In this document: in pieces, positions 2,766 through 23,647 of the stretch | Numbering within the stretch: the first letter of the stretch is position 1 | How the letters are laid out: each line of letters starts with the position of its first letter | Virus record (IMG/VR): IMGVR_UViG_3300047667_000364 | Span: 1-24,151 of that record | DNA length: 24,151 bases | Origin: a virus | Reading direction: 5' to 3' (one strand) | The notes under the pieces: generated by a model | Told to the model about the DNA's origin: nothing | Database searches by the model: none | The model's input: only the letters and a program-made list of their open reading frames with translations | Made by a program: the position numbers and the translations under genes

Positions 2766-3149
2766 ATGGCAGCAACAGGTGGAAGCATTGAAAGCGTTAC
2801 GATCAACGGGCGGGAATTTCCAGCCACTGCAGACTCGGACGTACAGCGAATCCTTGGCGGGTTTAATAACGAACTTTTGCCTAATGGGGACGGGACTAGT
2901 CGGCGCATAAAAACGCGAGTCTTACCGGCGTTTAAGGGGGTGGTTGTTGAGTGCGACGACGCGCGCGCGGATCAAGAATTTTTACAAGATATAGCGGACG
3001 GCGAGGCTCTTGTGCCGATCGCGGTTACGTACGCGTCGGGGTTACCATACCAAGGCAGGGGGACGATCGTCGGCGAGTTAGGATCATCAAACCAAAGCGC
3101 TACGGCAAGCTTCGACATAATGGGCGAGGGTAAGTTTACCCAGCAATAA
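2766..3149 (+). CDS. Tail tube protein (Mu gpM-like)
   Basis: A 127-aa protein that stacks as rings to form the rigid inner tube of the contractile tail. The sequence begins AATGGSIESVTINGREFPAT and continues with QRILGGFNNELLPNGDGTSR, a pattern typical of Mu-type tube proteins. The C-terminal half is beta-rich (VPIAVTYASGLPYQGRGTIV) and ends in a conserved GKFTQQ-like tail. It directly follows the sheath gene and precedes the assembly chaperone, exactly as in Mu-like tails. No signal peptide or membrane segment is present, as expected for a cytoplasmically assembled virion protein. A stem-loop lies just after its stop codon. High confidence from size, sequence pattern and order. Confidence 0.85.
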   Translation: MAATGGSIESVTINGREFPATADSDVQRILGGFNNELLPNGDGTSRRIKTRVLPAFKGVVVECDDARADQEFLQDIADGEALVPIAVTYASGLPYQGRGTIVGELGSSNQSATASFDIMGEGKFTQQ

Positions 3150-3161
3150 CCAAAAAACAAC

Positions 3162-3206
3162 GCCGACGGGGTACGCCCTACCCATGCTCGTTCGCGGGAC
3201 GTCGGC
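3162..3206 (+). other. Stem-loop between tube and chaperone genes
   Basis: GCCGACG at 3162-3168 is exactly complementary to CGTCGGC at 3200-3206. Inside that loop a second hairpin pairs GGGTA (3169-3173) with TACCC (3179-3183). The structure begins 12 nt after the tube stop and ends 22 nt before the chaperone ATG. No U-tract follows, so it is not a classical terminator. It may set transcript stability or the large tube-to-chaperone expression difference; that role is inference. Confidence 0.5.
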
Positions 3207-3228
3207 ACCATAACAGGGCAGAAAAAAA

Positions 3229-3639
3229 ATGAGCAAAATTAATTTAGAAGTAGCACAAGCAGAATTTGATCGATTTGTAGAGTGTATGGGTTTATTGCTT
3301 GACACCTCGAACATGGACGTGGAAGACAAAACGGCTTTTGATAAACAAAAAAATCGAATACTTGACGCGATGATCTCCGGTCATTTAGTTATTAACGACG
3401 ACGGCGAAGCGGTATACACACCGTTTAGACCGACAAGCGGGCACAAAGAGCCGATCACGTTTCACGAGCGCACAGGCGCGTCGGTCCTTGCGATGGACGG
3501 CAAGAAGAAGGGCCACGACATGGCAAAGACCTATGCAATAATGGCCGAAATGTGTAAGGTCCACCCCTCGACGTTTTCGAAACTCGCCGGCCCCGATATT
3601 AAAACATGTGAGGCGGTGTACGCGCTTTTAATGGATTAG
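3229..3639 (+). CDS. Tail assembly chaperone, short form
   Basis: A 136-aa, charged, mostly helical protein between tube and tape measure, where long-tailed phages encode a chaperone that coats the tape measure during tail assembly. Motifs include a GKKKGHDM block (about residues 91-98) followed by helices with KVHPSTFSKL. It ends at TAG 3637-3639. The +1-relative frame is closed, but the -1 frame is open past this stop to 3857, so this is probably the major unshifted product of a frameshifting gene pair. The ribosome site is weak (AGGG near 3215, followed by an A-run). The role is assigned from position, size and the frameshift arrangement rather than a catalytic motif. Confidence 0.75.
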   Translation: MSKINLEVAQAEFDRFVECMGLLLDTSNMDVEDKTAFDKQKNRILDAMISGHLVINDDGEAVYTPFRPTSGHKEPITFHERTGASVLAMDGKKKGHDMAKTYAIMAEMCKVHPSTFSKLAGPDIKTCEAVYALLMD

Positions 3640-3857
3640 TCCGGGCGCGAGTAATCAGAGCGGGCGCGCTTGAGTACATACCGGCGCGCCAAGGCGGGAA
3701 CACATACGCTAATGTTTACAGCGTTATGCTTTTACAGATAACGCGAGATTACCCCGGACTCCCGGACGTTCGGACTCTTAAGACATCAGAGATAGAATTT
3801 TTTTATAATGGCTTAGTGCCTGAGCTGGAGCGAAAAGAGAATGGCGGGAAGGTTTAG
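3229..3857 (+). CDS. Tail assembly chaperone, long form made by -1 frameshift
   Basis: Reading codons in the -1 frame, no stop occurs between 3612 and TAG 3855-3857. A shift after the Leu codon TTA (3628-3630) therefore adds about 75 residues to the first 134, giving about 209 aa. The extension is convincing protein: it contains LEYIPARQGGN, a DYPGLPDVRTL block and, near the end, a TSEIEFFYNGLVPEL motif of the kind found in the C-terminal part of Mu-like tail chaperones. Its codon use matches neighbouring genes. It overlaps the tape measure start by 17 nt. Frameshifting at this point of the tail operon is a well-known feature of long-tailed phages; the exact slip position here is inferred. 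Only a minor fraction of ribosomes would be expected to make it. Confidence 0.8.
3625..3690 (+). promoter_or_regulatory. Putative -1 frameshift site with downstream stem
   Basis: The zero frame reads CTT TTA ATG (3625-3633). A tRNA-Leu on TTA can slip back one base onto TTT (3627-3629). This lies in the only window that works: the -1 frame is closed by TGA at 3609-3611 and the zero frame by TAG at 3637. A perfect 7-bp stem, GGCGCGC (3663-3669) with GCGCGCC (3684-3690) and a 14-nt loop, lies about 32 nt downstream and may stimulate slippage, though this spacing is longer than usual. It is not a canonical X-XXY-YYZ heptamer. Confidence 0.55.
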
Positions 3858-5625
3858 CGTTGAAACTATTTTTAAGGCAGTTGACAAGCTAACCGCGCCC
3901 GTTTCTCGTATGCAGAATTCGATCGGCAAATTTACGCGATCAGCTAGTGACGGCTTAGGTCGGTTAAACCGAAGGTTTTCAAAGGTCAGCGACGGGATCA
4001 AAAAGGTCGGCCGTAACATGCTGATCGGCGCGGCTGTAATTGGCGGAGCTATGACCTCCGTGGTTGCCACCGGCGCGCAGTTTGAGCAATCCATAGTTAA
4101 CGCCTCCGCAAAATTCCCGGAGGGGGTCAAGCGGGGGACAGACGCATTTAAAGCGCTAGAAGACGCCGCACGCAAGACAGGATCAACCACCGAGTTTACC
4201 GCCTCGCAGTCAGCCGAAGCGATTAACTTTTTAGCTATGGCGGGATTTAACGCCGAAAACGCGATCGCCGCACTTCCTGGAGTCGTGGATCTTGCGACCG
4301 CTTCCTCTCTCGACTTAGGCACCGCGACCGACATCGCGTCGGATTCTCTCGGCGCTTTTAATCTAATGACGAAAGACTCCGGGCAGTTAGGGCGCAACCT
4401 GCAACGCGTTAATGATGTGATCGCCAAGACAGCAACGAGCGCAAATACAAGCGTGACAGACCTATTTGAAGCCATAAAAGACGGCGGCCCGGTAGCCACT
4501 ACGGCGGGCGCTTCGCTGGAAACCTTCGCGGCTTTAGCGGGCACGCTAGCTAACGCCGGTATAAAAGGCAGTCGCGCTGGTACAACTTTAAAAAATACGT
4601 TTTTATCAATCGCGGCCCCTAGCAGCGCAGCGGCTAAAATACTAAAGCGCCTTAGCGTTTCAACGCAAGACGCCGACGGAAACATGCTGGACATAGTGGA
4701 GACGTTAGACAGTCTTAACAAAGCCTTAGACGGCTTGGGGACCGCGGAGCGCTCGGCTATACTTGAGGGGATCTTCGGCAAAATCCCGATTGCAGGCGTT
4801 AACGTTCTACTAGCAGCGGGAACCGACCAGCTAAAAGGGTACAGGCGGGCGCTTGAGGGGGCCGGCGGCGCTTCGGCGGACATGGCGGGTATTATGCGCG
4901 ACACGTTACAGGGCCGACTAAACAGCCTTAAATCGGCCGTTGAAGGCGTTTCGATTAGCTTATTTAGCATGACAAACGGGCCGCTAGTAAACGCGATAGA
5001 AAAGACTACGGAGTATGTCAGAGCTAACGAAGAGTTAATCGCGACTAACATCGGCGGTTTTTTGGCGAAGGTGATCAACAATTTCGAACTAATCGTTACG
5101 CGAATAAAACAGATCGCGATCGGTTTGGCGGTATTCTACGCGCTAAATTTAGTGTTACAGACGTTCATCGTTATTATGACCGCAGTAAATCTAGTCATGG
5201 CGCTAAATCCGATCGGTCTGATCGTGCTTGGCGTGCTAGCCTTGATCGCGGCGTTTGTCGGCCTAGTGACGTATATTGACGAGATCAGCGAAGGGTTTGA
5301 AGGTATGCACCCCGTGCTCCAAGCTCTTTTAGCGCCCTTCGGGCTAATAATTAAAGCAATTAAATTTATAAAAGATAACATCGGCGTGATCTCACAGGCG
5401 TATGACAAAGTCGCAGGGTTCTTTAGCGACGACGCGGCGGACCAAGTCGACGGGCGGACCGGCGCGACTATGGTCACCCCTCAAGATCGGATCGCTCGCA
5501 GTATAGAAGAGAGCCGATCTACTAGCTCGGCGGAGGTAACGATCAAAGACGATACCGGGCGCGCGGCGGTCACAGGAGGTCGACTGGGAGACGGGATCAA
5601 CATGATACAATCAGGAGGCTTTTAA
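3841..5625 (+). CDS. Tail tape measure protein
   Basis: A 594-aa protein that sets tail length and is ejected with the DNA. The N-terminus (FSVETIFKAVDKLTAPVSRM) is typical of Mu gp42-like and TP901-family tape measures. Residues about 65-370 hold the conserved domain with GAQFEQSIVNASAKF, a KTGSTTEFTASQSAEAINFLAMAGF block and a LANAGIKGSRAGTTLKNTF block. Two hydrophobic segments follow at about residues 425-480, usual for this family and possibly acting in membrane passage. The protein is short for a tape measure, which predicts a rather short tail. The start overlaps the frameshifted chaperone by 17 nt, and a modest AG-rich site precedes ATG 3841. High confidence from motifs and position. 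Confidence 0.92.
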   Translation: MAGRFSVETIFKAVDKLTAPVSRMQNSIGKFTRSASDGLGRLNRRFSKVSDGIKKVGRNMLIGAAVIGGAMTSVVATGAQFEQSIVNASAKFPEGVKRGTDAFKALEDAARKTGSTTEFTASQSAEAINFLAMAGFNAENAIAALPGVVDLATASSLDLGTATDIASDSLGAFNLMTKDSGQLGRNLQRVNDVIAKTATSANTSVTDLFEAIKDGGPVATTAGASLETFAALAGTLANAGIKGSRAGTTLKNTFLSIAAPSSAAAKILKRLSVSTQDADGNMLDIVETLDSLNKALDGLGTAERSAILEGIFGKIPIAGVNVLLAAGTDQLKGYRRALEGAGGASADMAGIMRDTLQGRLNSLKSAVEGVSISLFSMTNGPLVNAIEKTTEYVRANEELIATNIGGFLAKVINNFELIVTRIKQIAIGLAVFYALNLVLQTFIVIMTAVNLVMALNPIGLIVLGVLALIAAFVGLVTYIDEISEGFEGMHPVLQALLAPFGLIIKAIKFIKDNIGVISQAYDKVAGFFSDDAADQVDGRTGATMVTPQDRIARSIEESRSTSSAEVTIKDDTGRAAVTGGRLGDGINMIQSGGF

Positions 5626-5878: not shown

Positions 5879-7726
5879 ATGACTAAAGTAATCTCAACAA
5901 ACGTTAACACGGCGCAAGAATACCAAGACGCGCTCGAAAAACTTTATCTTTTCGGAGAATTAACGACAACGGCGTTGATCGCCTCAACTGAGGTTTATCC
6001 GGCCTCAACAGTCATAAACACGATCGGGTTTACAGCTAGCGCCGATCTTGGAAAGGGAGATTGGAAACAAACCGGCCTGGTCGGTCAACCCGTGAGCCGA
6101 AGCCCTGCACAACTAGGAGACAACCTTTTAAACGACGGCTTGGGCAATCAGTGGTCCCTTAAGAGTTACCCTCACAATGTACACATGCTCGGGGCAGTTG
6201 GCAACGGGGTCATTAATGACGCGCCCGTGTGGGAGGCATACTTAACCACTTACGCGATGTTCGGGTGTAACGGGATAAAGGGTAAAGTTTACGGCGTTGC
6301 GGGGGATCTAGTTCTACCGTCTAGGCTAGGTATGAAAGACGCGGAGTTCTTCCAGCTAACCCCCGCATCTCAAACACGGACACTCTACAGCCCATCTAAT
6401 TTGCATTGTAATTTTGAAAATGTAGAAGTAAACCGAGGCACTGATAAAAACGGCGGTAGCTTAGCGAATAGTGCTGGCTTTTGGATAGTCGGCGGAGTCA
6501 TTAGGGGTAGAGACATAAGCGCTACGGGTAATGGTTTTGGTTCTGGAATGTCTTTCCATTTGTTTGACGATCTAATCATATACAGCCCAGTGGTCTATGA
6601 TAATTTTGCAGGAGATAGCACAACAGCGGCTTTATCAGACGATGTTTTCCAAGGATTTTGGTTAAATCGAGGCGAAAAAGCACAGGTTTATGCCCTTTCT
6701 GTTAAAAACACTACAGTTGAATGGACAGGACAAGCGCCGACGACGAGATTCAACAGAGGTGTCTCTGTAGGTGGTACAAAAGACTTCACGTTCCACGGCG
6801 GTATAGTTGACACCGTGGGCCAGGGCTGGGACTTTACAGGGGACCAACATACTACTAGATTCAGCGTACTCGGTGCACATGCAAATAACTGTTATTCTTG
6901 GGGGTTTAAATCCGCAAACACTGCAACCTTTGGGGCCTACATAGGGTGTCATACTTACAGAGCGGATTTAGGGGGTTTTGTTGCAAGCGCGCCGGGTGCC
7001 GTAGTAGCCAACCCGCCCGAAGAATATACACAAAATATCGTTTACACTAACTGCACAGCAACAGAGACCGGCTCCGTAGGTAACTGGGCAGGGCTTGCTA
7101 CGATTGCGGGCTTTAGAACTGGTAACACCCCGGTATACCCGACGTATCCTCAGGGTATACAGTGGCTTAACTGTATAGCCAATAGTACAACTGCAGCGTT
7201 TGGGTTTTTTAATGAGATAAATAGGAACGCCGCAATTATTAATAACTGGGTTGAAGAAAGTGGGTGCAAGTCGTTCGGTCACACAGACGCAGCATTCCGT
7301 GGACTAAACTGCCCTTATTTAGACCGTAGGACAGCTACAGACCAGCCCATACCCTCAGGCACCGCGACAGTAGTATCTTGGGACGATAGTCTATACGACG
7401 GATTTAACGGATTAACCTCTGCAACTGTGAATACAATCCGCCGCGACGGAGTGTATACCGTCAAGGCTAGCGCCGAGTTTGAAGGCGACGCGCTAGGGGT
7501 CAGGTCGATCCAACTGTACCTTAACTCGGGAGGAGGCGGTCCTAGAAGGACATCAGCACCGAGCGCAAACGGCACTACGGTAGACATTAGTCATACACAA
7601 AGGTTTTCCGAAGGTGATACAATTGAAGTATACGTACAGCAAGATAGCGGCTCAACTTTAGATATAAAGAGCGGACAGACTACATTGACCGTAACCGGCG
7701 AGACTCAGGCAGGTCGTTCAGTATAA
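5879..7726 (+). CDS. Tailspike-like protein: beta-helix with C1q-like C-terminus
   Basis: A 615-aa protein probably used for host surface recognition or polysaccharide cleavage. Residues about 45-95 form a virion-binding region with a GKGDWKQTG motif and a SPAQLGDNLLNDGLGNQWSL block. Then HMLGAVGNGVINDAPVWEAYL gives the GA.GdG..D signature that begins pectate-lyase-type right-handed beta-helices. Residues about 140-485 are Gly/Asn-rich repeated short strands typical of such a helix. Residues about 490-605 resemble a C1q/TNF-like jelly roll (VVSWDDSLYDGFNG, GVYTVKASAEFEG, RSIQLYLNSGG, FSEGDTIEVYVQQDSG), a common trimerising tip. The middle of the gene is visibly more AT-rich than the flanking tail genes. 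No catalytic residues can be named. The location next to the tape measure is unusual for a spike. Confidence 0.7.
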   Translation: MTKVISTNVNTAQEYQDALEKLYLFGELTTTALIASTEVYPASTVINTIGFTASADLGKGDWKQTGLVGQPVSRSPAQLGDNLLNDGLGNQWSLKSYPHNVHMLGAVGNGVINDAPVWEAYLTTYAMFGCNGIKGKVYGVAGDLVLPSRLGMKDAEFFQLTPASQTRTLYSPSNLHCNFENVEVNRGTDKNGGSLANSAGFWIVGGVIRGRDISATGNGFGSGMSFHLFDDLIIYSPVVYDNFAGDSTTAALSDDVFQGFWLNRGEKAQVYALSVKNTTVEWTGQAPTTRFNRGVSVGGTKDFTFHGGIVDTVGQGWDFTGDQHTTRFSVLGAHANNCYSWGFKSANTATFGAYIGCHTYRADLGGFVASAPGAVVANPPEEYTQNIVYTNCTATETGSVGNWAGLATIAGFRTGNTPVYPTYPQGIQWLNCIANSTTAAFGFFNEINRNAAIINNWVEESGCKSFGHTDAAFRGLNCPYLDRRTATDQPIPSGTATVVSWDDSLYDGFNGLTSATVNTIRRDGVYTVKASAEFEGDALGVRSIQLYLNSGGGGPRRTSAPSANGTTVDISHTQRFSEGDTIEVYVQQDSGSTLDIKSGQTTLTVTGETQAGRSV

Positions 7727-15738: not shown

Positions 15739-15969
15739 CTATTTTTTAGGATTCGAACGTATTATCCCCCGAACGTGATCGCGCTTGAACTTTTCGACCT
15801 GCTCAACGGTCGGACTATACGGTATCAGATACCGGGCGATCGATCTTTTGCTATCTTTAAACTTGATCGCTATCTCTCCTAGGCTTGCGCCCTCGGCGTA
15901 CATCTCGGCAATGCGATCGCCGCGCGTTGGTAAAAACAACTTCGCCCATTCTTCTAAATCTTTGCTCAT
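15739..15969 (-). CDS. Small helix-turn-helix protein
   Basis: A 76-aa protein translated leftward from ATG 15969. This start, not the one 57 bases earlier, is chosen because AAAGGAT lies just upstream and the longer version would overlap the polymerase gene. Residues about 15-46 read as a helix-turn-helix: RGDRIAEMYAEGASLGEIAI followed by KFKDSKRSIARYL, as in Trp-repressor or sigma-region-4-like DNA readers. The C-terminus is basic. It is the last gene of the replication operon, five bases after the polymerase stop, and could be a regulator or DNA-binding helper. The family is not named with confidence. Confidence 0.65.
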   Translation of the reverse strand: MSKDLEEWAKLFLPTRGDRIAEMYAEGASLGEIAIKFKDSKRSIARYLIPYSPTVEQVEKFKRDHVRGIIRSNPKK

Positions 15970-15974
15970 ACTTT

Positions 15975-18383
15975 TTAATCCTTTTGATATCGTTGGTGTG
16001 TCCAGCCGGCCGCTTTTAACGGCCACCAGCTAGCCCAGGCGGGACGCTCAGAAAAGACGGCGCACATGTCGTCTACTGACCCAAAGTCCTCGGGTACTTC
16101 TGCGCAACCTTCGTCGTGTGTGTGCATTACGATCGAATAGCCGGCCGCTTCGGCGCGCTCAAGTGCTAAGAATTGAATATCGGCGCTAACCGCTTGTACA
16201 TAGTTTTCAAATAGTCGCCCGCCGTAAGTTTCTAAGACTTGCCAGCCTACCGCGCCTTTTTTTGGGTTGCTATTGTGGCCCTCAAAGGTGATTCGCCAAG
16301 TGTCACGGACTTTAGTCTTAACCCATTCACCGTCGATCCTTTCGCTAGTACAGTCGCGCCCGAGCTTGTCGTGCGTTTGTGTCAAGCGTGGCTTGTGGTA
16401 GTGCAGGAAGCGCCCAGAGGGGAGACGACAAAACAGTATATCATTGTGGACCGCGTAACTTATGTCGATGTAAGGAAAGCACTCGCCGGGGTTCAGTATG
16501 GCTTTGATCGCCATGCCCTCAAGCCCGAAAAGCTCTGGTTTATAGTCCCATTTACCCGGCCCGCAGTGTGAATATTGCCCGCCCCACGCGCGTTCGATCT
16601 CCGGCGACTCGGCTCTCCACTTTAAAATATCGGCTTTGATCTCCGCGTCCGTCATAAAGTCGCCCGCACCAAAGGCCAGAAACGCCCCGATCCAGCCGCC
16701 GTACCCCGCCGCGAGCTCGCGCACTTTGCCGATCGTTTTTCGGGCAGGGTGGTGCATGCCATTGTCTTTTTTATATTGTAAAATTTCTGCAAAAGAGATC
16801 CCCGTAGCATTGGCGGCGCTTTGCTCGTAGATCTTCCCGTGTGTGCCGAATATATCGATCCGCCATTGGCAACGCGATACGCACGCGGCCGCCACGGCTT
16901 CGATCGCCGAGAAGTCAACACATATCAGCTTTTTACCTTTTGAGGCGATGAACAGGCCGCGCAGACAGCCGCACATAAGCGCCACCACGTCGCCCCAAAC
17001 GTCGATCAGATCGTCAAGATTTTGGCGCATGATGTCACTTATAGCGTATTCGACAGACTCAACGGTCCAGTCGTTATTTTGAGTAAACCGATTATTCATG
17101 CACTCTGGGCAGTCTTCGCACTTTGCGCCGACATGGCGGCCGCAAAAGTCGCACGTCTTAGACTTGGGTCCTTTGGCTGTTATGTTTTGCAGTTGTGCGC
17201 CGCCGGAGCTAGCGCGCCCGGTCCGGTCCGCCCCGCAGTACATATATTGATCGCGTAGGCGCCCGTCGCTACTGACTTGTAATTTTATTGTGTGAAGCTT
17301 TTTAATATTCGCGGATCCTAGCGCTTGGCGGATCTCAAGTGCTCGGCGTACGTTGTGCCCTAGCGCGTCGCGTTTTAAAAACTCCTCGATCGTTTCGGCT
17401 TGCATGTCGGGCAAATTAATGCCAACGGACGAAAGCCAGCGCAAAAAAGATGCCGTTTCGTTGACGGTGCCGACCGCCCCGCCGGTGATCTCGCACAACT
17501 CAAGTGTAAAGCGCTTTGTCACTTCGTCGAGTATGTAAAGCATGGCGTCGAGCGCTTTCACGTCTACTTGTACGCCGCGCGCGTTGATAGTCTGATCGTG
17601 TAACCATTGGCGGCGCTCGGCTCCGGTCAGGTCGGGGATCCGTGCGGCGGCGTCGTCTTCCGCTTTTACGTCGTCAAGGTTATAAGTGTAAAATTTTGCA
17701 AAGTCCGCCCAATCGCTTAAGGGCGTGCGCCTAAACGATCGGCGAGCCTTTGTCAAGCTATGAGGGCGCGTTAGTTTTTGGATCAGTGCTTTACCCGCCG
17801 GATCCTTTCGCATTGAGTCAAGGACCGTCGCAGCTTTATCAAGGCCACCAGGCAAGCTAAAGCGGCGAGACCTGGACATAACGCAAACGGTCTGATCGAG
17901 AGGTAAGAGCGGCCAGCCGTGCTTCCGCACGCCGACCACGTTCCAGATCCACCATTCAAACGTTGAATTCCACGCCTCGATCATACCGCCGCTGGCAATG
18001 TGACCTAATAGGTCGCGCGGCTCAGGTGATCCGGGGATCCAAAGCTTGCGCCCTTGGCCGTTCTTCAAGTCGTACGCGAGCGACAAGATCGCCGCGCTTG
18101 GGTGCGTTGCGTAGTTGGGCGTCCCGACAAGAGGCAAACCCCCTTGCTTGCCGGTTCTAGCGCTTGTAACCTTGCCGGTCGCGTGATCGATAGTGTAGCC
18201 GGCTTCGCTGTAGGTCTCAAAGTCCATCGACGGAAGCACGGTCGAGCGAGTGATCCCGACGTTTTCGATTATCTGTCCGGCGCGTAGGTCGTAAGGCTCG
18301 ACCGAGACGCAGAGGTCGTCGGCGTGCAGGTCGTCGGTCCAGAACGCCGCGTCGCTCTCGGGGTGGTAGAATAGCCCTAACAC
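15975..18383 (-). CDS. Family A DNA polymerase with 3'-5' exonuclease domain
   Basis: An 802-aa replicative polymerase. The exonuclease domain shows DFET (residues 54-57), WNSTFEWW (138-145) and YNLDDVKAEDD (234-244), matching Exo I-III. The polymerase domain shows motif A VDFSAIEA (D490), motif B RKTIGKVRELAAGYGG (548-563) and motif C HDE (756-758). A cysteine cluster (C411, C414, C425, C428, also C422) after LQNITAKGP suggests a zinc ribbon inserted before the palm, as in a known group of phage polymerases. All catalytic acids are present. At the position equivalent to E. coli Phe762 there is Leu557. It starts at GTG 18383, overlapping the preceding stop by one base, with GAGGG just upstream. 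Confidence 0.93.
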   Translation of the reverse strand: MLGLFYHPESDAAFWTDDLHADDLCVSVEPYDLRAGQIIENVGITRSTVLPSMDFETYSEAGYTIDHATGKVTSARTGKQGGLPLVGTPNYATHPSAAILSLAYDLKNGQGRKLWIPGSPEPRDLLGHIASGGMIEAWNSTFEWWIWNVVGVRKHGWPLLPLDQTVCVMSRSRRFSLPGGLDKAATVLDSMRKDPAGKALIQKLTRPHSLTKARRSFRRTPLSDWADFAKFYTYNLDDVKAEDDAAARIPDLTGAERRQWLHDQTINARGVQVDVKALDAMLYILDEVTKRFTLELCEITGGAVGTVNETASFLRWLSSVGINLPDMQAETIEEFLKRDALGHNVRRALEIRQALGSANIKKLHTIKLQVSSDGRLRDQYMYCGADRTGRASSGGAQLQNITAKGPKSKTCDFCGRHVGAKCEDCPECMNNRFTQNNDWTVESVEYAISDIMRQNLDDLIDVWGDVVALMCGCLRGLFIASKGKKLICVDFSAIEAVAAACVSRCQWRIDIFGTHGKIYEQSAANATGISFAEILQYKKDNGMHHPARKTIGKVRELAAGYGGWIGAFLAFGAGDFMTDAEIKADILKWRAESPEIERAWGGQYSHCGPGKWDYKPELFGLEGMAIKAILNPGECFPYIDISYAVHNDILFCRLPSGRFLHYHKPRLTQTHDKLGRDCTSERIDGEWVKTKVRDTWRITFEGHNSNPKKGAVGWQVLETYGGRLFENYVQAVSADIQFLALERAEAAGYSIVMHTHDEGCAEVPEDFGSVDDMCAVFSERPAWASWWPLKAAGWTHQRYQKD

Positions 18384-18830: not shown

Positions 18831-19790
18831 TTATTGTGGTAAATAGTTTGTCGCTTGGCTTGGGTAAGGGTTACCGTTGCCTTGCGCCTGCGCGCTTATT
18901 AGCTTAGCCATACCCCATTCCACTAGCTGGGCTTCGGTGTGACCCTCGGCCATCGCTTTCTCGTACGTTACCGGTGAACCGGGCAGCATCTCAACGCCTG
19001 GAGCGGGCTTTTGTTGAGCGTATGGGTTACCCGCGCTTTGTTGTTGTTGTTGTGGCGCGCTTATTAGCTTAGCCATACCCCATTCCACTAGTTGGGCTTC
19101 GGTGTGACCCTCGGCCATCGCTTTCTCGTACGTTACCGGCGAACCGGGCAGCATCTCAACGCCTGGAGCGGGCTTTTGTTGAGCGTATGGGTTACCCGCG
19201 CTTTGTTGTTGTTGTTGAGCGTACGGGTTACCGCCTCCTTGCGGTTGTTGTTGTTGAGCGTGAGCGCCGAAAGCGGCCGCCGCGTTAGCACCGCTACCGC
19301 CGATCGTGATCGGGCTTGCCCCCGCAGAGACTAGAGGGCAAAAGCCTTGCAAACCGAACCCGATCCCTTTTTGCTTGTTTTCATAAGGGAACGAATTCAC
19401 CAAAACATTCACTTTTTGACCAGTAAAAAGCGTAGGCCCCCAGACCATAGGCCCTTGTATGAGTTCGCCGGTTTCGCTGTAACATTGCGGCGCGTGTTGG
19501 GTCTTAACACTCATTTTGATCCAGCCATTAAAAAGCCCGTCTAAGTCGGACGCCCCTAGGACTTTTAAAGGCCAGTTGCCGCCGTTCGGCATAACCCCCG
19601 CCCATTTTGAGCGCTGCAGCTCTTGCGCGGCTAGGCTCTCTAGTAGAAGCTTATCGGAACTAGTCGGGGAGATCACTATCCCGAGCTCATAGCTCAGAAC
19701 CCCCTCGTTGTTAGCCTTCGGGATTTTTATACCTTCCCAGACTACGGTCGCGCCTTCGATCATTACATTGTTTTCGTCAATTTTTGACAT
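18831..19790 (-). CDS. Enc34-type (DUF2815) ssDNA-binding protein with duplicated C-terminus
   Basis: A 319-aa protein that should coat single-stranded DNA during replication. Residues about 1-155 match the DUF2815/Enc34 SSB plan: MIEGATVVWEGIKIPKANNE, then LAAQELQRSKWAG, LKVLGASDLDG, a KTQHAPQCYSETGE block and, near its end, LFTGQKVNVLVNSFPYEN with KGIGFGLQGF. The rest is a Gln/Gly/Pro-rich linker (GNPYAQQQQQ) plus two nearly identical copies of a 55-residue unit containing VTYEKAMAEGHTEAQLVEWG. Related short helical motifs occur at the ends of other phage proteins. No acidic C-terminal tail is seen. AAAAGGAT precedes ATG 19790, overlapping the end of the nuclease gene region. The terminator above follows it. 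Confidence 0.75.
   Translation of the reverse strand: MSKIDENNVMIEGATVVWEGIKIPKANNEGVLSYELGIVISPTSSDKLLLESLAAQELQRSKWAGVMPNGGNWPLKVLGASDLDGLFNGWIKMSVKTQHAPQCYSETGELIQGPMVWGPTLFTGQKVNVLVNSFPYENKQKGIGFGLQGFCPLVSAGASPITIGGSGANAAAAFGAHAQQQQPQGGGNPYAQQQQQSAGNPYAQQKPAPGVEMLPGSPVTYEKAMAEGHTEAQLVEWGMAKLISAPQQQQQSAGNPYAQQKPAPGVEMLPGSPVTYEKAMAEGHTEAQLVEWGMAKLISAQAQGNGNPYPSQATNYLPQ
18891..19218 (-). repeat. Two-copy 165-bp direct tandem repeat in the SSB gene
   Basis: Copy one (18891-19053) and copy two (19056-19218) have a period of 165 bp, exactly 55 codons. Within 163 aligned bases I find two differences (18927 C versus 19092 T, 18975 T versus 19140 C), and both are silent, so the encoded units are identical. 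Runs of GTT (CAA Gln codons on the coding strand) flank each copy, which would favour slippage or recombination. The pattern indicates a recent in-frame duplication. Confidence 0.95.
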
Positions 19791-19793
19791 AAT

Positions 19794-20948
19794 CTAGATC
19801 CTTTTAAATGCCTTGGCTACTTTAGAGTCCGCGGCTTTGGTTAATTTTACGCCCTGAAGTGGGCGCGTTGTGATTGATTTTATCATCGCCTTAAGGCTTT
19901 CGTCCTTCGCAGTCGAAAGCGCCTGTGTGGGCGTTATTAGTCCCGGTTTTGCGACTTCAAGGCCGGCCGACTTGCAGAGCATGATCACGACTGCAGGATC
20001 AGCCGTCCACTTTAAGTTCCCGCGGGCGCTTTCTAGCGTGTACCCAGTGCCCGGCGTCGAAGCTTTGATATGCTCTTCAACGGCTTGCGCTCTCGCTTTT
20101 AACAAAGTCATCGAGTCTTGCAGTATGCCGAACTCGGTCCCTAGTTGCTCGGGCGTTTGTTTGTGCATCGCGTACTCGGTGCGTGCAAAGTCCGCCAAAG
20201 CGTACGAGGCAAGCGTGGCGCCTTGGCACTCTGCGATCGCGGGGCAGTCGCGGCAATGCTTCCCCGGCGTTAGCGTTGGACTAGTGCCGAGCGCCTCGTA
20301 AGCTTGCGCGCTCAGTTGGTTATAATAACCGCGAAGCTCGGCGGCGTTGACGACCCACTCTTCGACCGCCCCGCCGGCCTTATAGGCGAACGGTTGTACG
20401 ACTCGGTGATGAACCGTTATATGCTGCTCTGCTTGTCCGTCAATTTCTAACCGGTTTATGATCCCCTTAGTGTAATCGATTAGTTGAAGGTTACAGACCG
20501 CCGATACGTGCCGGTGTCCGTGCTTATACTCCCATAAAAACAAATGACCTTTGGCGTGAATCCACATGAAAGCGTCTAACGTCCCCCAGTTCTCGGGGTG
20601 GATGTCGGGCATGTAGAGACGTTGCTCGACTTCTATGAGCTGTAAGCCCCCGAACTCTTGCGCAACGTGCAGAACGTCGGAGACGTAAACCGCCGCCCCT
20701 TCGGCCATTTCCTCGTCGATGGTTATGCCGTTTGGTGCTTTTTTACCGATCCATTCGTATGGAGACGGGCACCCCCCGTCGGAAGACTTGTAGCGCTCTA
20801 AGACCTCGGAGCCGACCCAATGCGCCGCCGTGCCGATCTCCGCTTCCGGCGTCGTAAAGTCGGGGTAGCTCAGACCGGCACGTACCGACCCGGCGCAATG
20901 CCCCCAAACGGGGGCGGAGCTAGGCGCGAGGACCGCGTGTTCTTCCAT
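19794..20948 (-). CDS. DUF2800 Cas4/RecB-like nuclease, putative Fe-S
   Basis: A 384-aa phage PD-(D/E)XK protein. Residues about 38-50 (IGTAAHWVGSEVL) supply the family His; GTLDAF gives D125; LWEYKHGHRHV gives E140 and K142 of the E-x-K. One N-terminal Cys (C18 in WGHC) and three C-terminal ones (C232, C235, C241 in HCRDCPAIAEC) fit a Cas4/AddB-type [4Fe-4S] cluster. In this family the protein is thought to process DNA ends or act in phage recombination, next to an ssDNA-binding protein. It starts by a TAATG overlap with the upstream gene and ends four bases before the SSB. The nuclease call comes from motifs; activity is inference. Confidence 0.8.
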   Translation of the reverse strand: MEEHAVLAPSSAPVWGHCAGSVRAGLSYPDFTTPEAEIGTAAHWVGSEVLERYKSSDGGCPSPYEWIGKKAPNGITIDEEMAEGAAVYVSDVLHVAQEFGGLQLIEVEQRLYMPDIHPENWGTLDAFMWIHAKGHLFLWEYKHGHRHVSAVCNLQLIDYTKGIINRLEIDGQAEQHITVHHRVVQPFAYKAGGAVEEWVVNAAELRGYYNQLSAQAYEALGTSPTLTPGKHCRDCPAIAECQGATLASYALADFARTEYAMHKQTPEQLGTEFGILQDSMTLLKARAQAVEEHIKASTPGTGYTLESARGNLKWTADPAVVIMLCKSAGLEVAKPGLITPTQALSTAKDESLKAMIKSITTRPLQGVKLTKAADSKVAKAFKRI

Positions 20949-21685
20949 TATGCTAGATACTCGTAAACTTCGCGTACTTTGTCGCCCGTCGCGTCTTGCA
21001 CTAAGTCAATTGTTGAAAGGTTAAGAGCTTTGAAAGCCGCTTCTAAGTGGTGCGCCTCATAGTTGCCGGCCGTTTGTTGGTTAGCAAACCAAGACATAAG
21101 CTCAGCGAAGTTCTTCGGCTCGTTTGCGTCGGCTACCGGCGTCTTTTTGAAAGCGTTGGCGGCTTTTTGAGGGTCCGGGGCGGGCTCGTCTTTGGGAGTT
21201 TCTTGCTCGTGATTAAGGAGTAGTTGTGCGGCGTACCATTCTTCGTATACGCCCTCAACTAGGCCTTTGCGCTTTTTCCATTGGCCTTTTTGCTTGCCGC
21301 TCGCGTAGAACGGGATCGCAGCCTCACCGCAAAACTTATCATCAAACGCTACAAGCTTTTCGTCGACGCGCTCCTCAGCCTTGCCGACTTGCTCATAAGC
21401 GCCGTGACTATCGCCGCGCGTTTGTGTCTCGCCGGGCTTTGGGTCGGGGGTATGTTGGTAAAGATTGTCGCGTTCTTCGGTTTTAGCTTCCTCTGTGCGC
21501 GTGTCCGCGGGGTTAAAAGCCTTGCGAAAGCTATCGGCTAGGACTACGTCCGAGGCTTTGAGGCTTACTTTTACCTGTTCGCCGTCCAGCCCGTCCAGCC
21601 CTTCGCCTTGACCGATAGCGATAAGCGCTCGCCCTATTGCTAGCGCTATATCTGATCGGTCGGAGGGAAATTCTATTTTAATCAT
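20948..21685 (-). CDS. Conserved phage protein of unknown function, first gene of leftward operon
   Basis: Start chosen at ATG 21685 because AAAGGATC lies upstream; the ATG 39 bases earlier (21724) has no ribosome site and lies inside the promoter region. This gives 245 aa. The N-terminus (IKIEFPSDRSDIALAIGRAL) is followed by an acidic linker, then a FCGEAAIPFYASGKQKGQW block with KKRKG, of a kind seen in other phage proteins encoded with replication or recombination genes, and a helical C-terminus. The charged, possibly disordered middle (residues about 70-120) has no motif. It overlaps the nuclease start by TAATG. Function not known; its position next to nuclease and SSB suggests DNA metabolism. 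Confidence 0.75.
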   Translation of the reverse strand: MIKIEFPSDRSDIALAIGRALIAIGQGEGLDGLDGEQVKVSLKASDVVLADSFRKAFNPADTRTEEAKTEERDNLYQHTPDPKPGETQTRGDSHGAYEQVGKAEERVDEKLVAFDDKFCGEAAIPFYASGKQKGQWKKRKGLVEGVYEEWYAAQLLLNHEQETPKDEPAPDPQKAANAFKKTPVADANEPKNFAELMSWFANQQTAGNYEAHHLEAAFKALNLSTIDLVQDATGDKVREVYEYLA

Positions 21686-21707
21686 CTTTTGATCCTTTGG
21701 TTTGTTG

Positions 21708-21736
21708 TTGACTGGCCCCGACATTAATGCTAATTT
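21708..21736 (+). promoter_or_regulatory. Sigma70-like promoter for the rightward helicase operon
   Basis: TTGACT (21708-21713), 17 bases, then TAATTT (21731-21736); the next gene starts at 21772. The -35 pair of the two promoters forms an inverted repeat GTTGAC (21707-21712) / GTCAAC (21745-21750), and CATTAATG (21722-21729) is a palindrome between them, so an operator here is possible. Confidence 0.6.
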
Positions 21737-21749
21737 TCCAACTTGTCAA
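21721..21749 (-). promoter_or_regulatory. Sigma70-like promoter for the leftward replication operon
   Basis: On the - strand TTGACA (21749-21744, consensus -35) is followed by 17 bases and TAATGT (21726-21721). The first gene starts at 21685, with AAAGGAT between. The opposing promoter overlaps it. Confidence 0.65.
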
Positions 21750-21771
21750 CTAATTAATTAAAAGTAAAAGT

Positions 21772-22020
21772 ATGAAAGACGCGACGCACTTCCTACACCC
21801 ACATCATTTTAAAGTTAGTAAGAACGACGTTTTAATTTGGAAAGCTAAAAAGTGGAATCCTAGCGCGTACAGTGTGCCCGGTTACTTCTTAATGCAACCG
21901 GAGCTCGTAGACTTAAACAAAGCGGGAGACGACCCGGCCGCTAAGTTTATGAGGGCGTACGGCTTGCGGCGCTCCCAGGTAAACAAAATGTTATCAGATG
22001 GGGTTCTTAAAATTGATTAA
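21772..22020 (+). CDS. Unknown 82-aa protein, first gene of rightward operon
   Basis: A small basic protein (THFLHPHHFKVSKNDVLIWK, then KAKKWNPSAYSVPGYF) with a helical C-terminus (FMRAYGLRRSQVNKMLSDGV) that could read as a loose helix-turn-helix. No membrane segment or signal peptide. No strong ribosome site is visible: an AAAAGTAAAAGT tract precedes the ATG. It overlaps the helicase start by 23 nt. As the first gene after the divergent promoter it may have an early or regulatory role, but I do not recognise the family. Confidence 0.6.
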   Translation: MKDATHFLHPHHFKVSKNDVLIWKAKKWNPSAYSVPGYFLMQPELVDLNKAGDDPAAKFMRAYGLRRSQVNKMLSDGVLKID

Positions 22021-23647
22021 ATTACACGACGATCAGGCCGAATTTGTCCGCGACATACGAAAGGCTTGGCGGGATCACCGCTCAGTTATGGGCGTGCTCC
22101 CCACCGGCGGCGGAAAAACAATTTGCTTTAGTTCGATAGTGCGCGATCACGCCGGTTATGCGGGCGTCGTGGTGCATAGGCGGGAGATTATTAAACAAAT
22201 AAGCCTTAGCCTTGGCGCTTTTGACATTAAGCACAGGATCGTCGCGCCGCCTGCAGTTGTCGCGATTGTCCGCCGGGCGCACATGAAAAAGTTCGGCAAA
22301 AGCTTTGTTGATCCGCACGCCCTTGTCGGCGTCGCATCCACTCAGACTTTGGCGAGTAAGTCAACAGAAAGTAATCAACTCGTCATGCGGTGGATCAATC
22401 AGTGCGATTTAGCGGTATTTGACGAAGGCCATCATTATGTCGGCGACGGTTCGTGGGGTAAAGCGGTTAAATTGTTTGATCACGCCGAGCGCTTGCTGTT
22501 TGTCTCCGCGTCCCCCGACCGAGCAGACGGTAAGCCGCTCAGCTTTTGCGACGTGCTCGTAGAAGGCCAAAACACCCAATGGCTGATCGATCATAAGCGG
22601 CTTAGCCCGTTTAAATATTACGCGCCCGAGTCTAATCTAGGCGTTGACGACATACCGCTAACGGCCTCCGGCGATTTTAACTCGCGCGCCTTTCGTGCTC
22701 AGGTTGTTGAGTCGGACATAGTCGGCGACGTTGTGGCCCAGTACTTAAAGCTCGCTAAGGGCAAAAAGACGATCGTATTTGCGACCGATGTCGAAACCGC
22801 TTTTGATATGGCTAACGCTTTTAACGCTCAAGGCGTGCGCGCTTTAGCGCTTCACGGCGGGAGCGAGTCCACCGAACGCGAGCGGGGCTTAGAACTTTTT
22901 GAAAGCGGGGACTACGACGTTCTCGTAAATGTAGATCTCTTTGACGAAGGGTTCGACGTGCCTTCGGTCGAGTGCGTGATCCAAGGGCGGCCCACGATGT
23001 CGATCATTAAATTTTTGCAGCAATGCGGGCGGGGTCTTCGCGTACTTAAGGGCAAAAAGTATGCAATTTTGATCGACATGGTGCGCAACTGGGAGCGCCA
23101 CGGCCTACCGTCGTTCCCTCGTACCTGGACGCTAGACGGTAGGGCGAAAGGCGAAGGCAACGAGCGCGACGCTGAGCCTTTGTCGTTGTGCTTGGTTTGC
23201 ACTCAGCCGTTCCCGGCATATCTTAAGGCGTGCACGATTTGCGGAGCTGAACGAGTACCGGCCGGCCGAGGCTCACCCAGCCAGGTCGACGGCGATCTGT
23301 TTGAACTTGATGTGGCCGCACTGCAAGCGCTCTTTAAGAAGATAGACGAGGCCAACCTGAGCGACGCCGACTACCAGCGCGATCAGATAGCGCGCAACAT
23401 ACCCGAGATCGGACGCGGGCCAGACTTAAAGCGCTATCAGGCGGCAAAGTATCGGCGCCAAGTACTTGAAAATTTGATCGGGTGGTGGGTAGGGTCTCAG
23501 CCTAAAAGCCGGGAGCTCGCGGAGATACAACGCCGGTTTTACGCTCGTATGGGGGTCGACATGGCGACCGCTAAAACGCTAAACGCAAAGGATACGGACG
23601 CGCTGATCAAGAAACTTGAAATTAATTTCACAAAAGACTTGCACTAG
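21998..23647 (+). CDS. Superfamily 2 DEAD/DEAH-type helicase with zinc ribbon
   Basis: A 549-aa helicase probably acting in phage replication or recombination. Motif I LPTGGGKT (34-41), motif II DEGH (142-145), motif III SAS (170-172), motif V around NVDLFDEGFDVPSVE (311-325) and motif VI QQCGRGLR (341-348) are all present, so it should be an active ATPase. A zinc ribbon follows the core (C398-x2-C401-x10-C412-x2-C415), then a helical C-terminal region with YQAAKYRRQVLENL and an ARMGVDMATAKTL block. ATG 21998 overlaps the upstream gene by 23 nt; a TTG at 22013 is an alternative start with a GGGG site nearby. A hairpin begins at its stop codon. Confidence 0.9.
   Translation: MGFLKLIKLHDDQAEFVRDIRKAWRDHRSVMGVLPTGGGKTICFSSIVRDHAGYAGVVVHRREIIKQISLSLGAFDIKHRIVAPPAVVAIVRRAHMKKFGKSFVDPHALVGVASTQTLASKSTESNQLVMRWINQCDLAVFDEGHHYVGDGSWGKAVKLFDHAERLLFVSASPDRADGKPLSFCDVLVEGQNTQWLIDHKRLSPFKYYAPESNLGVDDIPLTASGDFNSRAFRAQVVESDIVGDVVAQYLKLAKGKKTIVFATDVETAFDMANAFNAQGVRALALHGGSESTERERGLELFESGDYDVLVNVDLFDEGFDVPSVECVIQGRPTMSIIKFLQQCGRGLRVLKGKKYAILIDMVRNWERHGLPSFPRTWTLDGRAKGEGNERDAEPLSLCLVCTQPFPAYLKACTICGAERVPAGRGSPSQVDGDLFELDVAALQALFKKIDEANLSDADYQRDQIARNIPEIGRGPDLKRYQAAKYRRQVLENLIGWWVGSQPKSRELAEIQRRFYARMGVDMATAKTLNAKDTDALIKKLEINFTKDLH

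Follow-up and report, generated by a model that had tools for sequence, protein, structure and literature searches.

A conserved pair of predicted face-to-face promoters between two phage replication operons and a TetR_N-only protein as candidate regulator

The window analysed here, a viral contig of 24,151 bases and a fragment of a tailed phage, carries at positions 21707-21750 a 44-bp element that is predicted to direct transcription both ways and is bordered by inverted-repeat arms (GTTGAC at 21707-21712, GTCAAC at 21745-21750). As the likely reading we propose that this element is a bidirectional early promoter, and that the two adjoining operons as well as the gene of the regulator itself would be under the control of a small TetR_N-only protein, here called mini-TetR. 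According to our comparison of homologous regions, the same layout recurs across dozens of phages that are only distantly related.

The operon to the left of the element, on the minus strand, begins with a gene for a 245-aa protein of unknown function (20948..21685); the genes after it encode a DUF2800/exonuclease protein (phrog_69; 19794..20948), a Gp2.5-like ssDNA-binding/annealing protein (phrog_112; 18831..19790) and, at 15975..18383, a DNA polymerase of family A (phrog_17). The first gene most likely starts with the ATG at 21685, where relatives share a MIKIEF-type N-terminus and where a putative ribosome binding site (AAAGGA, 21693-21698) lies 7 bases upstream; a start at 21724 is disfavoured because the longer reading frame would overlap or run through the promoter. 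In the C-terminal tail of the Gp2.5-like protein a stretch of about 50 residues is repeated in tandem, with two copies of AGNPYAQQKPAPGVEMLPGSPVTYEKAMAEGHTEAQLVEWGMAKLISA. To the right, on the plus strand, an 82-aa reading frame (21772..22020) is the first gene of an operon that continues with an SF2 DNA helicase (phrog_16; 21998..23647, protein matches).

The sequence-only reading had described two overlapping promoters, TTGACA-17-TAATGT leftward and TTGACT-17-TAATTT rightward, and both were found where they had been placed. For the rightward promoter, the predicted -35 box TTGACT (21708..21713, plus strand) also forms the outer half-site of the left arm; it is followed after a 17-bp spacer by the predicted -10 box TAATTT (21731..21736), with a predicted start at about 21743. 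The leftward promoter has its predicted -35 box TTGACA, also the outer half-site of the right arm, at 21744..21749 (minus strand) and its predicted -10 box TAATGT, again after 17 bp, at 21721..21726, with a predicted start at about 21714. Both have the features of sigma-70 promoters, namely a TTGACA-like -35 box, a spacer of 17 +/- 1 bp and a -10 box with T-12, A-11 and T-7. The -35 boxes match the consensus at 6/6 (TTGACA) and 5/6 (TTGACT) positions, and the -10 boxes, though retaining TAnnnT, match TATAAT at only 3/6 positions each, which is weak by E. coli standards and the reason why a consensus promoter scan lists neither promoter. Each predicted start adjoins the -35 box of the opposite promoter, so that, judged from geometry, only one RNA polymerase can be accommodated at a time.

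The window by itself makes a modest, suggestive case. TTGAC-N25..40-GTCAA occurs once in the 24 kb (0.25 expected), and 22 of 100 shuffled sequences contain it at least once; TTGAC-N18-TANNNT occurs twice (0.59 expected), and both occurrences are the two junction promoters. These statistics are not compelling without comparison.

Relatives were collected by protein similarity rather than by motif, using the helicase in IMG/VR and the 245-aa protein and DUF2800 protein in annotated phages. The replication and helicase operons likewise diverge from one another in phages of Oceanospirillum, Pseudoalteromonas, Vibrio, Alteromonas, Aeromonas and Shewanella, and also in those of Pseudomonas, Stenotrophomonas, Acinetobacter, Klebsiella and Sinorhizobium. 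We compared 47 junctions including that of the window, from Oceanospirillum, Vibrio, Alteromonas, Shewanella, Acinetobacter, Klebsiella, Sinorhizobium and uncultured phages. An exact TTGAC-N31..36-GTCAA is present in 42 of them, that is, TTGAC is kept in both arms; among the other five, one has the arms at N39 (L033), and in four one arm is degraded or missing (L011, L025, L044, L063). Distant helicase homologues that do not show the divergent layout (e.g. L035, L037 and L039) lie outside the count of 47, and no such element was found in them.

After removal of similar cores, 34 non-redundant junctions were left, and dinucleotide shuffles of the inner sequence (2000 rounds) served as null model. 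The inner sequence is otherwise unconserved, with a mean identity of 0.39. A TAnnnT at a spacer of 16-18 bp was found rightward in 22/34 junctions (shuffle mean 2.7), leftward in 24/34 (shuffle mean 3.1), and on both strands in 19/34 (shuffle mean 0.2, maximum 3 in 2000), with 17 bp being the commonest spacer. The distance between the two predicted starts is 29-31 bp in 17 of the 19 two-promoter junctions (29 in the window), and the gap between the -10 boxes is 4-5 bp in 16 of the 19. The presence of TAnnnT on both strands, together with the fixed start spacing, indicates that both promoters have been selected as one unit. Very probably, two working promoters are present, and gene order and comparison support the assignment, made earlier, of the leftward one to the replication operon and of the rightward one to the helicase operon.

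The motif appears to be meaningful only within its genomic context, since scans of 2.9 million viral contigs for the bare motif gave chiefly chance matches, with L085 and L164 as the only genuine new junctions. A search of genome contigs for prophages, with the DUF2800 protein as query, gave no match. In Pseudoalteromonas phage PY6 (PP806536) we observed four 40-bp copies of TTGAC-N30-GTCAA (at 7093, 12368, 19984 and 28180), which enclose a GTAGCGC...GCGCTAC palindrome and come with a -10 box of the TACACT/TACGCT type, at least one copy being intergenic. These gap-30 repeats and the junction of Klebsiella phage 1611E-K2-1 had suggested that a GTCAA near the start is part of every promoter, an idea that we dropped as it is not general. 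In two records the helicase gene seems to be interrupted by an intein-like insertion directly after the Walker A motif GGGK (L025, about 2900-4000, just downstream of the junction; L029, 3257-3953); the gene in helicase position of Vibrio phage 1.009.O (L053, 715-3363), annotated as homing endonuclease, fits this picture.

The arms had also been put forward as candidate regulator sites, and here the comparison extends the earlier proposal. In many relatives each arm is one half of a 16-bp dyad, TTGAC-N6-GTCAA. A GTCAA with at least 4/5 matches follows TTGAC at exactly N6 in 18 of 68 arms (shuffle mean 1.0, maximum 6), as against 0-3 arms for other spacings, and one junction (L017) has two perfect dyads. 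Beyond the junction, the exact dyad occurs six times in the genome of Vibrio phage CP-T1 (6537, 9812, 12722, 23361, 30663 and 34100) and seven times in that of Klebsiella phage 1611E-K2-1 (4455, 25837, 28586, 29787, 35105, 38713 and 47275), and other dyad spacings are found about once per spacing, summed over 13 genomes. Nearly all of these sites in the two phages have one TTGAC at the -35 position and a TAnnnT-like -10 box, directed toward the next gene. The N6 dyad looks like an operator, and the sites in CP-T1 and 1611E-K2-1 probably constitute a phage regulon. In Pseudomonas phage MR14 and Acinetobacter phage Scuro the N6 dyads have one mismatch. A clear dyad is seen in only about one third of the junctions, the inner halves being degenerate in the window and in many marine relatives; at arm gaps of 31-33 the inner half clashes with the opposite -10 box, and perfect dyads occur at gaps of 34-36. 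The palindrome CATTAATG (21722-21729, between the arms), likewise suggested as a regulator site, is indeed present but confined to the window and not conserved; being absent from the other junctions compared, it was discarded as operator.

A candidate for the cognate regulator is a protein of about 100 aa (90-115 aa), which consists of a TetR_N domain with a short conserved tail; its gene was found in 40 of 44 records. The four records lacking it are two fragments (one being the twin contig of the window, which ends in the helicase), W14 and Agrobacterium phage 7-7-1 (G022); in the latter the arms are present (TTGAC-N31-GTCAA) and mini-TetR was not detected. Three members match PF00440 (TetR_N) above the Pfam cut-off, and an AF2 model reached a pLDDT of 91.8, its best PDB neighbours being LuxR, SmcR, HapR and other TetR proteins (E about 0.01). 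At this length the protein is devoid of a C-terminal ligand-binding/dimerisation domain. It falls in phrog_8723, which is annotated as "unknown function". The window contig ends before any mini-TetR gene; we infer the gene from the lineage L254/L255, where it lies in an opposing operon. Four further phages were picked by the regulator alone. In Pantoea phage AAM22 and Edwardsiella phage PEi21 the junction carries N6 dyads, and so does the mini-TetR gene or its close vicinity; Psp6 and PhiPLPE have a mini-TetR homologue, and no such junction element was found in them.

A link between regulator and junction is suggested by shared promoter sequence. The closest helicase relative of the window (L021/L254, 86% identical) carries a mini-TetR gene, the promoter of which (TAGTTGACAAGTTAGAAAATAAACCTTAATTT) equals the leftward promoter of the window (TAGTTGACAAGTTGGAAAATTAGCATTAATGT) in 24 of 29 bases, and the same applies to L255. 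The candidate operator TAGTTGACAAGTTGGAAAATTA (21731..21752, minus strand), is common to the mini-TetR promoters of L254 and L255, and the window has no other such site. An exact scan for this lineage motif returned five contigs, of which one is the twin of the window, two hold the mini-TetR promoters and two are unrelated and match by chance. A likeness between the junction and the phage's own mini-TetR promoter is also seen in VP16T/C, Vibrio phage 1.009.O, Acinetobacter phage Scuro and Oceanospirillum phage PD0307. When junctions were paired with their own mini-TetR promoter, at least 20/29 matches were obtained in 4 of 30 non-redundant phages (p = 1e-4 against permuted pairings); in the other 26 no shared sequence was found upstream of the mini-TetR gene. 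The shared sequence could reflect a recent promoter duplication instead of an operator. At position 556 of L254 the lineage promoter occurs a third time (TAGTTGACATTGTGGAAAATAACGCATAATTT), here preceding a different cluster of genes, and the regulon in this lineage may thus be larger.

As an alternative, the element might consist of plain overlapping sigma-70 promoters that have no dedicated regulator, with the arms kept only as good -35 boxes and polymerase competition setting the ratio of the two operons. The strongest signal of all, TAnnnT correctly spaced on both strands, is what such promoters would give, and so are the degenerate inner dyad halves of the window and many marine relatives. 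We nevertheless regard this alternative as unlikely, since it leaves the enrichment of N6 dyads and the genome-wide N6 sites of CP-T1 and 1611E-K2-1 unexplained, and accounts neither for the sequence which, outside the hexamers, is common to junction and mini-TetR promoter nor for the T-W-G/A found upstream of TTGAC in the junctions.

The sequence-only reading had further taken the junction for a choice point between the two operons, i.e. a genetic switch, perhaps with the 82-aa protein or a 76-aa HTH protein as arbiter. The geometry, which excludes two polymerases at once, and a weak Cox-like match of the 82-aa protein (phrog_575, E 0.0045) speak for a switch, which we nonetheless hold to be very improbable: both operons serve replication (polymerase, SSB and exonuclease in one, helicase in the other) and are expected to be active simultaneously, and bidirectional promoters of E. 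coli compete little at basal activity (PMC12825309). In addition, the 82-aa protein is not conserved (its only relative is on an identical contig, and its AF2 model has a pLDDT of 46), and in several relatives the helicase gene directly follows the junction. The 76-aa protein (15739-15966, minus strand, downstream of the polymerase gene) is HTH-like, with only weak matches (phrog_6081; phrog_664, DNA-binding protein). Flanking repressor and antirepressor genes, as in a lysis-lysogeny switch of the CI/Cro type, are absent, the flanking genes being replication genes. Neither protein is supported as a regulator, and the TetR_N-only protein expected beyond the contig end is the better candidate. 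An equally improbable proposal, that the junction mainly serves as a replication origin or as the site of an initiator protein, with its repeats playing a part in replication, agrees with its position between replication genes, its higher A+T content than the flanks and the near-minimum of the cumulative GC skew (19-24 kb) around it. However, a reversal of gene direction would be expected to produce such a change in skew, conservation falls on the positions of the two -35 and two -10 boxes, and comparable sites precede other genes.

Returning to the regulated bidirectional promoter, we envisage face-to-face sigma-70-type promoters with TTGAC -35 boxes outside and TAnnnT -10 boxes 4-5 bp apart inside, on which host RNA polymerase would sit in either orientation, each firing blocking the opposite promoter briefly. 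Leftward firing would produce the replication operon (245-aa protein, exonuclease, SSB and polymerase) and rightward firing the helicase operon, and both would probably be made together and early. Joint early expression is the likelier course because both operons provide replication functions and because competition in E. coli is confined to high activity (PMC12825309). Mini-TetR, once accumulated, would bind the arms and its own promoter and lower all three transcription units, thus acting as an autorepressor. We lean towards binding of mini-TetR to the junction; if it binds, repression appears a fairly good bet over activation, a guess from the habit of the TetR family. If our proposal holds, the phage protein family phrog_8723 would obtain a function and a target, and the timing of replication genes in a widespread phage group would be explained. 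As natural and strongly conserved two-way promoters with a spacing unlike the known E. coli type, the junctions make polymerase competition directly testable in cultured phages.

In the bidirectional promoters of E. coli described by Warman, Grainger and colleagues, both directions use a single symmetric -10 element and the starts lie 10, 18 or 23 bp from each other; where overlapping, such promoters compete only under strong activation (PMC12825309). The phage junctions resemble them in combining pseudo-symmetric sigma-70 DNA with two opposite predicted starts and, judged from geometry, one polymerase at a time. They differ in having two -10 boxes with 4-5 bp between them in place of a shared one, in a distance of about 29-31 bp between the predicted starts, and in a layout that is fixed across many phages. 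For Agrobacterium phage 7-7-1, whose record (G022/L045) shares the TTGAC-N31-GTCAA arms with window-type junctions, divergent sigma-70 promoters were predicted between two transcription units, and the accessible part of that account does not mention overlap, arms, conservation or a regulator (PMC3517404). The tetR-like genes of phiPLPE-group myoviruses, including CP-T1, were noticed earlier and read as co-opted cellular regulators; they are the same mini-TetR genes, but the word "promoter" is absent from that study (PMC3391216). In the open-licence literature we found no account of the conserved overlap, the arms or the link to mini-TetR. We tentatively suggest that phages of one family with a wide host range use an invariant symmetric promoter whose outer operator half-sites double as -35 boxes, and that a stand-alone TetR_N protein (phrog_8723) lacking a ligand domain controls both early operons and itself; this would be a ligand-free TetR timer of replication not previously described. 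Repressors of the TetR family act on divergent promoters, binding with their TetR_N HTH to a palindromic operator that overlies the promoter, and have their own gene among the targets. The proposed phage model has these features in common with them, i.e. the TetR_N HTH, the palindromic operator over the promoter and the regulator gene as a target. Unlike TetR repressors, the phage proteins (about 100 aa) have no room for a ligand-binding domain, and their proposed target is the replication module of the phage.
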